This document shows positions 57,307-63,903 of a stretch of DNA of 64,000 nucleotides, one piece after another. The position numbers and the translations under genes were made by a program. The DNA is from Vallicoccus soli (GTDB lineage Bacteria > Actinomycetota > Actinomycetes > Motilibacterales > Motilibacteraceae). Numbering within the stretch: the stretch's first letter is position 1; every line of letters starts with the position of its first letter. A model generated the notes under the pieces. It was not told where the DNA came from, searched no databases, and worked only from the letters and a program-made list of their open reading frames with translations. The DNA lies in the NCBI RefSeq assembly GCF_003594885.1, contig NZ_QZEZ01000003.1, forward strand, positions 186,001-250,000, in the 5' to 3' direction.

Positions 57307-58203
57307 TCAGTCGAGCGGCGGCGCGGGCGCCGACGCGCCCCGCGAGGACAGCGTCACCCCGACGCTCGCCAGCGAGACGAGCACGAGGGCGACCAGCTCG
57401 CGCGGGCCGAGGGCCTGGGAGAGCACGACGAGCCCGGCGAGGGCTGCGGCGGCCGGCTCGAGGGCCATGAGCACGCCGAAGACGCGGGTGGGGATGCGGC
57501 GCAGGGCCGCCAGCTCGAACGAGTAGGGGACGACCGAGGACAGCACGGCGACGGCGAGCCCGACGAGCAGCAGCGAGGGGTCCCCGCCCACCGCGGAGGC
57601 GCCCGACGCGCCGAACGGCAGCGCCACGAGGCCCGCGACGGCGAGCGCGACCGCGAGGCCGCTGGTCCCCGGCACGAGCGAGCCGACCCGGGCGCTGGCG
57701 AGGATGTAGCCGCCCCAGAAGAGGCCCGCGACGAAGGCCAGCACGAGCCCGCCCACCGGCAGGTCGTCCACGCCGCCGAGCCCGAGCAGGGCGACGCCCG
57801 CCGCGGCGAGCAGGGCCCAGCCGGCGTCGCGCCAGCGCCGGGTCTGCACGAGCGCGACGAGCAGCGGCCCGAGGAACTCCACGGTGACCGCGACCCCGAG
57901 GTCCACGGTGCGCAGCGACAGGTAGAAGACGAGGTTCATGCCGGCCATCGCCGAGCCGAGGAGCAGCACCGCGCCCCACTGCTGCCGCGTCCAGCGGTGC
58001 ACCGCGGGGCGCAGCAGCGCGAGGAGCAGCAGGCTCGACAGCCCGAGGCGCAGCAGCACCATGCCCGCGGCGCCGACCTCGTCGAAGGCGGTGCGGGCGA
58101 CGGCCGAGCCGGTCTGCACCGACGCGATGGCGACGAGGACGAGCAGCGGCGCCGGCACCGCGTCCAGGCCCCGGCCGGCGGGAGCCGTGCGGACCCCGCT
58201 CAC
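57307..58203 (-). CDS. EamA/RhtA-like metabolite exporter
   Basis: 298 residues with about ten transmembrane helices in two EamA repeats (first around residues 20-140, second 155-285). Landmarks are VQTGSAVARTAFDEVGAAGMVLLRLG, DLGVAVTVEFLGPLLVAL and ALRRIPTRVFGVLMALEPAAAALAG, as in the RhtA threonine/homoserine exporter group. GTG start overlaps the stop of the GntR gene (GTGA, 58200-58203), so the regulator and transporter are co-expressed. Amino-acid efflux is the usual role; the exact cargo is unknown. Confidence 0.9.
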   Translation of the reverse strand: MSGVRTAPAGRGLDAVPAPLLVLVAIASVQTGSAVARTAFDEVGAAGMVLLRLGLSSLLLLALLRPAVHRWTRQQWGAVLLLGSAMAGMNLVFYLSLRTVDLGVAVTVEFLGPLLVALVQTRRWRDAGWALLAAAGVALLGLGGVDDLPVGGLVLAFVAGLFWGGYILASARVGSLVPGTSGLAVALAVAGLVALPFGASGASAVGGDPSLLLVGLAVAVLSSVVPYSFELAALRRIPTRVFGVLMALEPAAAALAGLVVLSQALGPRELVALVLVSLASVGVTLSSRGASAPAPPLD

Positions 58204-58970
58204 GGGGCGGCCTGCCCGTGCGCGTCGAGCAGCTGGCGCTCGGCGCGGTCGAGGTAGTCCGCGAGCCGCGCCGCCGCGCCCGCGCGGTCCCCCGCCTCCA
58301 GCAGCCCGGCCAGGCGGGCGTTGTCCTCGAGGTACGGCTCGTGGAACGGGCGCAGGTCGGCCATGACGGAGAAGGCGAGGCGCAGCTCGGCGAGCAGGTG
58401 GCGCATCGACTCGTCCATGCGGGGGCTGCCGGCGAGCGCCACGAGCGCCTGGTGGAAGTGCATGTTGGCCGTGCCGACGCCGGACCAGTCGTCGCGGCGC
58501 GAGGCGGCCCAGCCCTCGTCCACGGCGGCGCGCACCCGTGCCAGGGCCGCGGGCGAGGGGTCCGCCGCGGCCACCCCGGCCTGCTCCAGCAGCCGGCGCA
58601 CCCGGTAGACGTCGGCCACGTCCTCGCGCTCGAGCGAGCGCACGAACACCCCGCGGTGCAGCTCGTGCCGGACGAGCCGCTCGCGCCCGAGCAGCCGGAA
58701 CGCCTCGCGCAGCGTGTTGCGCGAGACGCCGAGCGACCCGCTCACCGCGTCCTCGCGCAGCCGCGCCCCGGGGACGAGCACGCCGTCGACGACCATCTCG
58801 CGCAGCGCGTCGGCGACCCGGTCGGCCGTGCTGCCGCGCAGGAGCCCGTCGCGCGCGGCGACCAGGCGCGCCGGGAGAGCGGCGTCGGGGTCGCTGCCCG
58901 GCCCGGCGCCCGGCCCGTCGAGCGGCTCGCGCGCCGCCGCCGCTCCCTGGGGTCCCATGGCCCGAAACAT
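58200..58970 (-). CDS. GntR/FCD-family transcriptional regulator
   Basis: About 256 residues. A winged helix-turn-helix (residues ~55-120, VADALREMVVDGVLVPGARLREDAVSGSLGVSRNTLREAFRLL) is followed by a helical FCD ligand domain with HFHQALVALAGS and RHLLAELRLAF. FCD regulators commonly sense carboxylic or amino acids through a metal site. I give the ATG at 58970, with GTGGAA upstream; ATG 58958 is also possible. It is co-transcribed with the EamA exporter and divergent from the pyroglutamate operon starting at 59097, so it is a good candidate regulator of both. Confidence 0.88.
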   Translation of the reverse strand: MFRAMGPQGAAAAREPLDGPGAGPGSDPDAALPARLVAARDGLLRGSTADRVADALREMVVDGVLVPGARLREDAVSGSLGVSRNTLREAFRLLGRERLVRHELHRGVFVRSLEREDVADVYRVRRLLEQAGVAAADPSPAALARVRAAVDEGWAASRRDDWSGVGTANMHFHQALVALAGSPRMDESMRHLLAELRLAFSVMADLRPFHEPYLEDNARLAGLLEAGDRAGAAARLADYLDRAERQLLDAHGQAAP

Positions 58971-59096
58971 ACTGGTTCCACGGCACCCCCTTGTCGGATC
59001 GTTGAACAACTCCTACGTTGACGGCCACCCAGACGAGGACGAACCGGCCCCAGCAGCGCGGGCCCGCCCTCCCCCTCCTCCCGAGAGGTCGTCGTC

Positions 59097-60461
59097 ATGG
59101 CCCTCCCCCGCCCGTCCCTGCGCCGCTCCCTCGCCGGCGCGGCCGCCGTCGCCGTGGTGGCGAGCGGCGCCACCGCGGTGAGCCTCGGCGGCGCCGTCGC
59201 CGACGAGCCCGTCACGCCCGCCGCCCCCTGCCTGCGCACCGACGCGGTGCTCACCGTCGAGGAGAGCCGCCTCGGCGAGCCCCTCCTGCCCGGTGGCGAG
59301 CCCGCCGCCCGGCGCTTCGTCGAGGCCGCCGGGTTCGACGGCCTCGTCCAGCGCTTCTACGACCGCCTCTGCGGCGCGACGTCCCTCGCGGCCGCCGAGC
59401 GGGTCGTCCGCTTCCACGGCCAGCGGCTCTGGGACGTCGCCGTCGCCCGCGCGCAGGGCGGCAACGGCCTCGGCACCATCGACCGCTACGACGACCGCCC
59501 GCTCTACTGGGCCCGCACCACCATGAGCGCCGCGGTGCGCAGCCTCGACGCTGACTACCTCGAGTCCGGCCTGCAGCGCCAGGCCCTGCTGCGCATCCTC
59601 GACCGCACGTCCCGCGGGCACGAGTCCATCGCCTGGCCCGCGGGGGACGCGGAGCGCGTGATGATCAGCGGCTTCGACACCTACAGCCTCGACGCCAGCC
59701 TGCGGAACTCCAACCCGTCGGGCGCGACCGCGCTGCAGCTCGACGGGCGCACGCTGGACACCCCCGAGGGCCCGGTCACCGTCCAGGCGGTCGTGCTGCC
59801 CGTCAACTACACCGACTTCGACCAAGGCGTCGTCGAGGACGCGTTCGGCCAGGTGCTGCGCACCGGGGAGGACCGCGCCGACCTCATCATGACCATCAGC
59901 CAGACGGGCCGTGGCCGCATGGACATCGAGCAGTGGGCGGCCAACGCCCGCGGCGGCTCCCCCGACAACAACCGCAACCAGCAGTTCGGCCCGGTGTCGC
60001 GGCCGTCGTACTGGCCGCAGCCGTACACCTCGCCGAACTGGATCGAGACCACGTTGCCGTACCAGGCGATGATCGACGCCGGCACCGGACCGTGGCCCGT
60101 CGTGCTCAACGACGGCATCTGCGAGTGGCCGGCGGGCACGTTCGACGACACCACGGGCGCGCCGGACCTGCCCGACCCGACCGAGCTCGTCTGCAAGGAC
60201 GACCCCTCGCCGGGCAGCGCGGCGGCGTCGGGCCCCGGCGGCAGCTACCTGTCCAACGAGAGCATGTACCGCTCCAACCGGCTGCGCCTCGGCATGCGTG
60301 CCTGGGACGTCCCCGGCGGGCACCTGCACATCTCGGCGCTGCAGTACCCGACGGACCTCGACCTGCTGACCGACCCGGCCTTCGAGGCGGACCGCAAGGC
60401 CGTCGTCGACCAGACCATCGCGCTCGTGGCCGCGGCCGGTGCGGCGGTGGACGAGCGGTGA
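59097..60461 (+). CDS. Secreted pyroglutamyl-peptidase-like (C15) protein with Ser in place of catalytic Cys
   Basis: 454 residues with a signal peptide ([29 protein letters not shown]). After an N-terminal region of ~180 residues, the rest aligns by eye with pyrrolidone-carboxylate peptidases. [12 protein letters not shown] matches the first strand, [10 protein letters not shown] the next. The Glu region is [19 protein letters not shown] (Glu278; family xxVERIAVN...PDN), then TTLPYQAMI. The nucleophile region is [11 protein letters not shown] (family AGTYxCN), so Ser386 replaces Cys, and the His region is GHLHIS (His411; family GFIHVP). It probably removes N-terminal pyroglutamate outside the cell with a serine nucleophile, or is inactive. 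It overlaps the transporter gene (GTGA) that leads into the 5-oxoprolinase genes. Confidence 0.75.
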
Positions 60462-61672
60462 GCAGCACCTCGACGGCGCCGCGACGCCGCCCGCTCGCCT
60501 CCCGGGGGCTGCTCGGGGCCATGTTCCTCATGGCCACGGGCGCCATCGGCCCGGGCTTCATCACCCAGACGACGACGTTCACCGCCGAGCTCGGCGCGGC
60601 GTTCGCCTTCGCGATCCTCGTGTCGATCCTCGTCGACATCGCCCTGCAGCTGAACGTGTGGCGGGTCGTCGGCCTCTCCGGCCTGCGCGCCCACGAGCTC
60701 GGCAACCGCGTGCTCCCCGGGCTCGGCTGGTTCCTGAGCCTGCTCATCGTCGTGGGCGGCTTCGTCTTCAACATCGGCAACGTCGCCGGCGCCGGGCTGG
60801 GCACCGACGCCATGATGGGCCTGGACCCGGAGGTCGGGGCGACGGTGTCGGCGGCGATCGCCATCGGCATCTTCCTCAGCAAGGCCGCGGGCGTCGCCCT
60901 GGACCGCATCGTCGTCGTGCTCGGCCTGCTGATGATCGTCATGACGGCGTACGTCGCCGTCATCTCCGACCCGCCCGTGGGCGAGGCGCTGCGGAACGTG
61001 GTGCTGCCCGAGGAGATCGGCTTCCTCGCCATCACCACGCTCATCGGCGGCACGGTCGGCGGCTACATCACCTACGCCGGCGCCCACCGCCTCCTCGACG
61101 CCGGCATCACCGGGCGCGAGAACCTCGGGGAGATCACCCGGGGATCGGTCACCGGCATCATCATCACCGGGGTCATGCGCGTCCTGCTGTTCCTCGCCGT
61201 CCTGGGCGTGGTGGCGGGCGGCGTGACCCTCGCCGAGGGCAACCCGGCGGCAAGCGCTTTCGAGTCCGCGGCGGGCGAGGTCGGCCTGCGGCTCTTCGGC
61301 GTCATCCTGTGGGCGGCGGCGATCACGTCGGTCATCGGGGCGTCGTACACGTCGGTCTCGTTCCTCACGACCTCGGCGACCGCGCCGCGGACCCGCAACC
61401 TGCTCACCGTCGGCTTCATCGTGCTGACGACCGTGCTGTTCCTCGTCATCGGCGCACCGCCGGCGGACCTGCTGGTCTTCGCCGGCGCCTTCAACGGGCT
61501 CATCCTGCCGATCGGCATCGTCGTCGTCCTCTGGGTCGCCCTGCGGCGCAACGACCTCATGGGCGGGTACGCCTACCCGCGGTGGCTCGTGGGGCTCGGC
61601 CTGCTCGCCTGGCTGGTGTCGCTCTACCTGGCGTACAAGTCCCTGTCCGCGGTCAGCACGATCTGGGAGTGA
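60458..61672 (+). CDS. NRAMP-fold transporter of the 5-oxoprolinase operon
   Basis: 404 residues with about 11 transmembrane helices and the NRAMP/LeuT-like fold, similar in type and operon position to YcsG of Bacillus. In TM1 the metal-binding DPGN of true NRAMP proteins is replaced by GPGF ([17 protein letters not shown]). In the TM6 position I see no MPH-type motif, and the region reads [17 protein letters not shown]. Metal transport is therefore unlikely. GTG start at 60458 overlaps the secreted C15-like gene; its stop overlaps pxpA (GTGA). The likely cargo is pyroglutamate or a related organic acid, by context. Confidence 0.88.
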
Positions 61673-62424
61673 GGGTGGACCTCAACAGCGACCTCGGCGA
61701 GTCGTACGGGCGCTGGACGCTCGGCGACGACGACGCCGTCCTCGAGCTGGTCACCAGCGCCAACGTCGCGTGCGGCTTCCACGCCGGCGACCCGACCGTG
61801 CTGCGCCGCACGTGCGAGCGGGCGGCGGAGCGGGGCGTCGTCGTCGGCGCGCAGGTCGGCTACCACGACCTGGCGGGCTTCGGCCGGCGGTTCGTCGACG
61901 TGGCGCCGGACGAGCTCACGAACGACGTGCTCTACCAGATCGGCGCCCTCGAGGCGTTCGCGAGGGTGGCCGGCACCCGGGTGGCCTACGTGAAGCCGCA
62001 CGGGGCCCTCTACAACACCATCGTCCACCACGAGGCCCAGGCCGCGGCGGTCGTCGAGGCCGTCCGGCGGTACGACCCCTCCCTGCCGGTCCTCGGCCTG
62101 CCGGGCTCGCAGTGGCTCCGGCTCGCCGGCGAGGCCGGGCTGCGCACGGTCGGCGAGGCGTTCGCCGACCGGGCGTACACCCCCGAGGGGACGCTCGTGA
62201 GCCGGCGCGAGCCGGGGGCGGTGCTCCACGACGCCGACGAGATCGCCGGGCGCTGCGTGCGGATGGCCACGCAGCGGGAGGTCGTCGCGGTCGACGGCAG
62301 CGTCGTGGCCGTCGACGCGCAGTCGATCTGCGTGCACGGCGACACCCCCGGCGCCGTGGCGATCGCGCGCTCGGTGCGCGAGGCGCTCACCGGCGCGGGC
62401 GTCGAGCTGGGCTCGTTCGCGTGA
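61669..62424 (+). CDS. pxpA: 5-oxoprolinase subunit PxpA (LamB/YcsF family)
   Basis: 251 residues. Starts [20 protein letters not shown], the standard opening of the YcsF family, and contains [39 protein letters not shown] and [15 protein letters not shown], all diagnostic. I chose the GTG at 61669, which overlaps the transporter stop (GTGA) and gives the usual M-x-x-DLN start; the ORF also contains a later GTG at 61675. PxpA is one of three subunits that together cleave 5-oxoproline (pyroglutamate) to glutamate at the cost of ATP, in the cytoplasm. Confidence 0.95.
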
Positions 62425-62449: not shown

Positions 62450-63055
62450 GTGAGGGTGCTGCCCTGCGGCGACGCCGCGCTGCTCGTCGAGCTCGCGGAC
62501 CTCGACGAGGTCCTCGGGATCAGCGCGGCGCTGCGGGCCGCGCCCCCGCCCGGCGTCGACGAGGTGGTCCCCGCGGCGCGCACGGTGCTCGTGCGGTGCG
62601 CGCCCGGGGCGCTCGACGCGGTGGCGGCGGCCGTGCGGGCCACCCGCCCGCTCGCGCCCGGCGCCGCCGCCGTCGACCAGGTCGAGGTGCCGGTCACGTA
62701 CGACGGGGCCGACCTCGAGGAGGCCGCCGCCCTGCTCGGCTGGGACGGCCCGGAGCTCGTGCGGCGGCACACCGGCACCACCTGGACCGTGGCCTTCTGC
62801 GGCTTCGCCCCGGGGTTCGGCTACCTCGTCGCGGACGGCGGGTGGCCGCAGGTGCCGCGGCGCAGCAGCCCCCGCACCCGGGTGCCCCCGGGCTCGGTGG
62901 CCCTCGCCGCCGAGTTCAGCGGGGTCTACCCGCGCGAGTCCCCCGGCGGCTGGCAGCTCGTCGGGCGGACCGACCTGCCCGTGCTCGACCTCGACCGCGA
63001 CCCGCCCGCGCTGCTGCGCCCGGGCGTGCGGGTCCGCTTCGTGGAGGCGGCGTGA
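62450..63055 (+). CDS. pxpB: 5-oxoprolinase subunit PxpB (KipI family)
   Basis: 201 residues. KipI-type motifs: LPCGDAALLVEL at the start, FCGFAPGFGYL in the middle and RSSPRTRVPPGSVALAAEFSGVYPRESPGGWQLVGRTD near the end. GTG start at 62450, with GGGAGGGAG upstream. Works with PxpA and PxpC as 5-oxoprolinase; older annotation as an allophanate hydrolase subunit or KinA inhibitor reflects domain similarity only. Its stop overlaps the pxpC start (GTGA), so the two should be made in equal amounts. Confidence 0.94.
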   Translation: MRVLPCGDAALLVELADLDEVLGISAALRAAPPPGVDEVVPAARTVLVRCAPGALDAVAAAVRATRPLAPGAAAVDQVEVPVTYDGADLEEAAALLGWDGPELVRRHTGTTWTVAFCGFAPGFGYLVADGGWPQVPRRSSPRTRVPPGSVALAAEFSGVYPRESPGGWQLVGRTDLPVLDLDRDPPALLRPGVRVRFVEAA

Positions 63056-63903
63056 CGGCCCGGGCGCTCGAGGTGCTGCGGCCCGGTGCCCTCGCCACCG
63101 TGCAGGACCTCGGGCGCCCCGGGCTCGCCGCGCTCGGCGTCGGCCGCTCGGGCGCCGCGGACCGCGCGTCGCTGCGCCTGGCGAACCGCGTCGTCGGCAA
63201 CCACGAGGGCGAGGCCTGCGTCGAGGTCACGCTGGGCGGCCTCGCCGTGCGGGCCGTCGGCGACCTGCTCGTGGCCGCCGCCGGCGCCCCCTGCCCCGGC
63301 ACGGCCGGGACGGGGGTGCCGACGTACCTCGCCGACGGCGAGGTGCTCGAGCTCGGGACGCCCCCGACGGGGCTGCGGACCTACCTCGCGGTCGCCGGGG
63401 GGCTGGCCGTCGACCGCGTGCTCGGCTCGCGCAGCACCGACGTGCTCGCCGGCATCGGGCCGCCCGCCCTCACCCCGGGGCAGCGCCTGCCCGTCGGTGC
63501 GCCGCGCCAGCCGCGCCGGCTCGTCGACGTGGCGCCCGTCCCGCCACCGCCGGACGGCGAGGTCGGTCTGCGCGTCGTCCCCGGGCCGCGCGACGACTGG
63601 TTCGCCGAGGGGGCGCTCGGGGCGCTGCTCGGCGGGGCGTACGAGGTGACGGCCGACAGCAACCGGGTCGGCATGCGGCTGCAGGGGCCCGGGCTCGAGC
63701 GGGCCCGCGACGGCGAGCTGCCGAGCGAGGGCATGGTCCCCGGCTCGCTGCAGGTCCCGCCCAGCGGCCAGCCGACGCTGTTCCTCGCCGACCACCCGGT
63801 GACCGGCGGCTACCCGGTGGTCGCGGTGGTCGTGCGGGACGACGTGGACCGCGCGGCCCAGGTGCGGCCCGGCCAGACGGTCCGGTTCCGCCGGGCCCGC
63901 TGA
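63052..63903 (+). CDS. pxpC: 5-oxoprolinase subunit PxpC (KipA family)
   Basis: 283 residues. KipA-type motifs: LRPGALATVQDLGRPGLAALGVGRSGAAD at the start, the region RTYLAVAGGLAVDRVLGSRSTD, and PSGQPTLFLADHPVTGGYPVVAVV near the end. GTG start overlaps the pxpB stop. It completes the PxpABC set: ATP-dependent opening of the 5-oxoproline ring to glutamate. With the transporter and the secreted C15-like protein upstream it forms one transcription unit. The next gene begins 66 bases later. Confidence 0.94.
   Translation: MTARALEVLRPGALATVQDLGRPGLAALGVGRSGAADRASLRLANRVVGNHEGEACVEVTLGGLAVRAVGDLLVAAAGAPCPGTAGTGVPTYLADGEVLELGTPPTGLRTYLAVAGGLAVDRVLGSRSTDVLAGIGPPALTPGQRLPVGAPRQPRRLVDVAPVPPPPDGEVGLRVVPGPRDDWFAEGALGALLGGAYEVTADSNRVGMRLQGPGLERARDGELPSEGMVPGSLQVPPSGQPTLFLADHPVTGGYPVVAVVVRDDVDRAAQVRPGQTVRFRRAR

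Follow-up and report, generated by a model that had tools for sequence, protein, structure and literature searches.

The locus raises the question of whether a protein that resembles a pyroglutamyl peptidase of family C15, but is exported and carries serine at the position of the catalytic cysteine, may still be a peptidase, and what it does at the head of a pyroglutamate operon. The window, i.e., the whole stretch of 64,000 nucleotides of Vallicoccus soli DNA that was analyzed, contains its gene as an open reading frame from the ATG at 59097 to the TGA at 60459-60461, encoding 454 amino acids with Glu278 in DIEQWAANA, Ser386 in GSYLSN and His411 in GHLHIS. The reading frame, coordinates and residue numbers of the first-pass annotation were all exact. 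As judged from sequence comparison and a structure model, the gene product is probably an exported Ser-nucleophile pyroglutamyl peptidase supplying PxpT and PxpABC. The features of the locus are collected in Table 1.

Table 1. Features of the C15-like gene and the neighboring pxp locus in window coordinates.
Feature	Position	Strand	Evidence
GntR/FCD regulator, likely PxpR orthologue	58200..58970	-	Pfam FCD 8.6e-16, GntR 4e-14
Putative pxp promoter/operator, 20 bp: TTGTCG (-35-like), palindrome ATCGTTGAACAAC inside spacer, TACGTT (-10-like) downstream	58991..59010	+	Pattern search, cross-genome conservation
C15-like gene, 454 aa, predicted exported Ser-position pyroglutamyl-peptidase homologue	59097..60461	+	ORF reading, homology, fold
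Signal peptide region, residues 1-36, RR-containing N-region and hydrophobic core	59097..59204	+	Sequence; disordered in model, pLDDT <50
Helical N-terminal domain, residues 45-182 (~140 aa), family motif DDRxLYWxR	59229..59642	+	Own model, pLDDT 90.5
C15-fold domain, about residues 185-454	59649..60458	+	VIA Z 24.2 to 5z48_B, 206 residues, 3.4 Å
Glu278, C15 catalytic Glu position	59928..59930	+	E in 45/45 window-type/Streptomyces proteins; D in Tenacibaculum
Ser386, C15 catalytic Cys position, TCC codon	60252..60254	+	Conservation, profile alignment
His409-x-His411; His411 = C15 catalytic His, His409 = swap for invariant Phe	60321..60329	+	Alignment
pxpT, YcsG-like Nramp-superfamily transporter	60458..61672	+	PF01566 1.7e-19; functional assignment via C. 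glutamicum homologue PxpT (PMC13274462)
pxpA, 5-oxoprolinase subunit A	61669..62424	+	PF03746 4.8e-104, NF003814 3e-115
pxpB	62450..63055	+	PF02682 (CT_C_D) 3.5e-55; TIGR00370 6.5e-32, 110.6 bits, below the 145.55 cut-off
pxpC	63052..63903	+	ORF frame; tblastn conservation beside PxpA/B; 52-63% identity to PxpC homologues adjoining pxpAB elsewhere

Searches with the single sequence scored family C15 only weakly. Pfam PF01470 (Peptidase_C15) matched it with an E-value of 2.2e-4 and 21.8 bits, not reaching the gathering cut-off of 22.7, and the same model individually matched 14 of 18 diverse members of the Ser family, with some relatives exceeding the gathering score. A single-sequence phmmer search against the PDB gave no pyroglutamyl-peptidase (PCP) match and a 43-sequence profile reached only an E-value of 0.05, so that a fold comparison was required. 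Alignment of the 43-homologue profile with ten classical actinobacterial Pcps by hhalign gave a probability of 97.3 and an E-value of 1.7e-11, pairing YLSN with FVCN and GHLH with GFIH. Ser386, Glu278 and His411 thereby fall on Cys143, Glu80 and His167, respectively, in agreement with the earlier alignment by hand, in which the Glu and His were kept and Ser386 replaced the Cys.

The AlphaFold2 model of the protein (pLDDT 85.5, pTM 0.85) had as its best VIA match the pyroglutamate-bound PCP of D. radiodurans (5z48), with a Z-score of 24.2 over 206 residues at an rmsd of 3.4 Å. The top 23 rows were PCPs throughout, with Z-scores of at least 20.3, and the next fold, MTA/AdoHcy nucleosidase, came at 12.7. 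Because the PCP matches stand far above the next fold, the C-terminal 270 residues are, on this model, a C15 domain. The relation to C15 claimed in the first-pass annotation thus proved to lie above chance at the Pfam, hhalign and VIA levels. In the model, Ser386 is the second residue of a helix (385-399) and His411 lies within a strand (407-412). The helical N-terminal domain is fused to the C15 domain in every instance seen and its DDRxLYWxR motif is invariant among homologues; it had no convincing PDB match, the best one (Z 8.6) being a designed protein that shares only common bundle arrangements.

Compared with pyroglutamyl-peptidase I (MEROPS C15, clan CF, PF01470), the protein shares the fold over residues 185-454, the Glu and His of the triad and the pocket positions Phe9, Phe12, Asn18, Gln70 and Phe141 (numbering of the first row of the classical set A2). 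It differs in having Ser instead of the Cys of AGT[FY]xCN, His409 for Phe and Ser268 for Gly, as well as in the export signal, the additional N-terminal domain of about 140 residues, the length (454 versus about 215 amino acids) and the Pfam score below the gathering threshold. Since the Cys that defines C15 is absent, the protein is best regarded as a Ser variant with a likely C15-type mode of action, and not as a proven C15 peptidase.

Conservation of the nucleophile position was evaluated in 51 homologues, comprising 45 distinct window-type/Streptomyces proteins and 6 proteins from plasmid records. Ser was found at position 386 in 50 of the 51, which span three phyla, and Pro in the remaining one. 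Within the set of 45, Ser386 was present in 44 and Glu278 and His411 were invariant. The plasmid-record homologues (Burkholderia, Comamonadaceae, Tsukamurella, Kitasatospora, Tenacibaculum and Enterobacter pOXA436) have YLSN and GHxH in 6/6, and only that of Tenacibaculum has Asp at the Glu278 position. The Pro (CCC codon) belongs to the G. pulveris homologue (L003:5986-7320), a near twin of which (L046) has Ser (TCC), suggesting a recent loss or a sequencing error. No Cys-bearing member was found among the 51 homologues, nor when 396 actinobacterial genomes were searched with a broad profile. The Ser codons are TCN in all Ser homologues, so that independent re-arrival at Ser via AGY is absent and the codon-switch test is uninformative. 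An unrooted tree that included classical C15 proteins separated the Ser set from the Cys set by a 100/100 branch with more than 4 changes per column.

Around the nucleophile, Gly192, Phe193, Asn206, Pro207, Glu278, Asn387, Tyr391 and His411 are kept relative to classical C15, as are Gln269 and Asp290 with one exception each, and in the Ser family position 196 is Phe/Tyr and position 384 is Tyr. Phe193, Phe/Tyr196, Asn206, Gln269 and Tyr384 correspond to pyroglutamate-pocket positions of PCP structures. The family changes Cys to Ser386, Phe to His409 and Gly to Ser268 jointly, and fixes Glu388 and Arg392. The changed positions are located at the nucleophile, two residues ahead of the catalytic His and next to the pocket Gln, a pattern that may reflect a re-tuned active site. 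In classical PCPs, mutating the Cys to Ser abolishes activity, and a Ser by itself would therefore be insufficient unless the other changes of the family rescue it. In the proposed mechanism, Ser386 would replace the classical Cys as the nucleophile on the C15 fold, with His411 as the general base and Glu278 orienting it, and His409 and the N-terminal DDRxLYWxR domain would probably be parts of the re-tuned active site.

The main rival explanation is a catalytically inactive C15 homologue that would capture extracellular pyroglutamate or pGlu-peptides, scavenging or sensing them for PxpT. In such a protein Ser386, Glu278 and His411 should vanish together, yet they persist across phyla, and most homologues do not adjoin a pyroglutamate transporter gene. 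This alternative is considered unlikely, even if it would fit the inactive classical mutants, the kept pocket residues, the Pro at 386 in one homologue and the coupling of the gene to that of a transporter. Catalysis by an exported enzyme remains the preferred reading. A signal-peptide-like N-terminus, reported in the first-pass annotation for the window protein, was seen there and in every homologue whose N-terminus is complete, and the Burkholderia homologue has a lipobox (LAGC). Cys 45, 92, 342 and 366 of the window protein are kept in the Geodermatophilus/Kineococcus group, and mature Streptomyces homologues are mostly devoid of cysteine. It can be argued that a Ser nucleophile suits an oxidizing extracellular environment.

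The stop codon of the C15-like gene shares 4 bases with the GTG start of pxpT, and 4-base overlaps are also found at pxpT/pxpA and pxpB/pxpC. Together with the domain matches in Table 1, these overlaps bear out the earlier proposal that the gene is coupled to a YcsG-like transporter followed by PxpA/B/C. The C. glutamicum pxpR-pxpTABC locus is an experimentally shown system for pyroglutamate use and sensing, in which growth on pyroglutamate depends on pxpTABC and these genes are under repression by the GntR protein PxpR, encoded in the same divergent arrangement; PxpR binds pyroglutamate and has the operator site agattgttcaacaatct (PMC13274462). Both the pxpT-pxpA-pxpB-pxpC operon and the divergent GntR gene are present in the window. 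Relative to that locus and to B. subtilis ycsF-ycsG, the window has the same divergent GntR regulator, ATTGTTCAACAAT-like palindromic operator, Nramp-type transporter and PxpABC, and adds the secreted C15-like gene in first place, between the operator and pxpT. The regulator gene starts at the ATG at 58970 (mechanical ORF start at 59009) and its product is 51-55% identical to the GntR proteins encoded next to pxp in Geodermatophilus pulveris and in Streptomyces. An EamA-family transporter gene (57307-58200, minus strand) lies directly downstream of it and is possibly co-transcribed.

The palindrome ATCGTTGAACAAC, at 58998-59010 between the regulator and the operon, matches the PxpR operator, with 12/17 identity to the C. 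glutamicum site; this feature adds to those reported in the first-pass annotation. A scan with the PxpR core gave 2 matches versus 0.08 expected, both being the two strands of this one palindrome. The 20-bp element is located 86 bp upstream of the C15-like gene. Searched as TTGTCGGATCGTTGAACAAC, the element occurs once in the 4.04-Mb window genome, and in two Geodermatophilus and two Streptomyces genomes it was found only at the pxp locus, save for one match with 2 mismatches. A reversed control of the 20-bp element gave 0 matches, and no match was obtained in the other Geodermatophilus, in Blastococcus or in the Kineococcus assembly searched. A sigma-70 scan at a strict threshold found nothing; the flanking bases are read as -35- and -10-like because they are conserved across five genomes. 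In the Streptomyces pxp loci, two PxpR-like palindromes are present in each (L112:6338 and 6426; L113:7030 and 7971), which suggests a double operator.

The element precedes pxp itself in Geodermatophilus and Streptomyces, and in G. pulveris it sits between the regulator and pxpT. Since the C15-like gene stands between the element and pxpT in the window, unlike in G. pulveris, it appears to have been recruited into the pyroglutamate regulon in the window genome. Upstream of pxp-unlinked homologues no convincing PxpR-type sites were found, so the claim of regulation is confined to the window. In the proposed route, the exported peptidase would clip pyroglutamate off blocked peptide N-termini outside the membrane, PxpT would take up the released pyroglutamate and PxpABC would open its ring to give glutamate. 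PxpR would sense pyroglutamate and keep the whole operon under pyroglutamate-induced control.

Linkage to pxp was also evaluated across genomes, since the first-pass annotation had read the locus as a complete route and proposed a test of co-occurrence with pxpABC. In Kineococcus vitellinus the C15-like gene, pxpT and pxpA are adjacent, and in Blastococcus VKM Ac-2987 pxpT-A-B-C is followed by the C15-like gene, giving adjacency in three genera with that of the window. The adjacency is absent in five Geodermatophilus, another Blastococcus and the seven Streptomyces loci examined. The proposed route, for which the window has the pxpT-pxpABC operon and the pxp-type operator, would therefore be a local arrangement, because most homologues do not adjoin pxp. 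Taken over the family, a conserved nucleophile position and a pxp link were nevertheless both found. The pxpA gene was present in 15/15 carriers first checked. The C15-like gene is carried by 96 of 150 Streptomyces genomes, and pxpA is found in 91 of these carriers (five lack it) versus 43 of 54 non-carriers (Fisher p 0.006, uncorrected for phylogeny). The two pcp-holding Streptomyces examined each have this classical gene at a distance of about 2-3 kb from pxpABC, and in the window genome no gene of classical C15 type was detected; thus, the C15-like gene takes the place that classical pcp occupies elsewhere. In one Geodermatophilaceae genome (G464:C6:781403-781581; L054, L055) there was a short C-terminal match only, which covers query residues 392-451 and may represent a decayed copy.

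The pxp-independent occurrence in most genomes, together with His409 for the invariant Phe, Ser268 for Gly and the extra domain, would also be expected of a C15-fold serine hydrolase acting on another substrate (an N-terminal lactam, amide or ester) that joined the pxp operon in a few lineages. This seems improbable, more so than the dead homologue, against the kept pyroglutamate-pocket positions, the placement at pxp loci in three genera and the position behind a pxp operator in the window genome. That a secreted protein of other descent resembles C15 in its motifs by chance and lies before pxpT by accident, as the weak single-sequence scores (Pfam 21.8 versus 22.7; phmmer without a PCP) might suggest, is highly improbable and was ruled out by the fold and profile comparison (Z 24.2, hhalign 97.3%, PF01470 matching 14/18 diverse members).

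The reading as an exported pyroglutamyl peptidase can be extended beyond the window, where it is held slightly less firmly. On balance, the homologues would form an extracytoplasmic Ser-nucleophile pyroglutamyl peptidase family with members in Actinomycetota, Pseudomonadota and Bacteroidota, which in some actinobacteria stands under the pyroglutamate repressor. On the clan CF fold, this would amount to a natural Cys/Ser exchange that coupled changes (His409 for Phe, Ser268 for Gly, Glu388, Arg392 and the extra domain) render workable. Clan CF of MEROPS has C15 as its single family, described as Glu-Cys-His (PMC12445089), and in openly accessible papers no mention was found of the Ser nucleophile position, the Ser family or a link to the pxp regulon. 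If true, a natural Ser form kept in several phyla would add a second type of nucleophile to this fold and offer a clean system for studying when Ser can stand in for Cys. It would also provide an oxidation-proof enzyme to unblock pGlu N-termini and an extracellular first step in pyroglutamate use.

Carriers of homologues include Streptomyces, Burkholderia and Tenacibaculum as well as an Enterobacter OXA-436 plasmid. Streptomyces and Kitasatospora proteins named pyroglutamyl peptidase in RefSeq belong to the same family, at about 40-45% identity; they differ in showing no pxp linkage in the seven loci examined and in that most mature proteins have no cysteines. A "peptidase C15" gene is known to flank blaOXA-48-like genes in Shewanella (PMC3480492, PMC9604219). 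In the Enterobacter asburiae plasmid pOXA436 (L108:2806-3963), the gene adjoining blaOXA-436, of the OXA-48 family, matches this Shewanella gene and belongs to the Ser family and not to classical Cys C15. Its product (WP_058842181.1), named peptidase C15 or hypothetical, has GGGYLSNE...YR and GHIH; it differs from the window protein in length (385 amino acids), in having no pxp linkage and in being only 28% identical. The Ser family would offer a testable function for this neighbor of blaOXA-48-like genes.

Pyroglutamyl-peptidase domains have also been noted in polymorphic toxin systems (PMC3482391). In a Tenacibaculum finnmarkense plasmid (L107:2278-4062), a Ser-family C15-like domain comes right after TssD and a baseplate-V/VgrG-like gene, which suggests contractile-injection cargo. 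A second plasmid carries a copy that is annotated as three CDSs.
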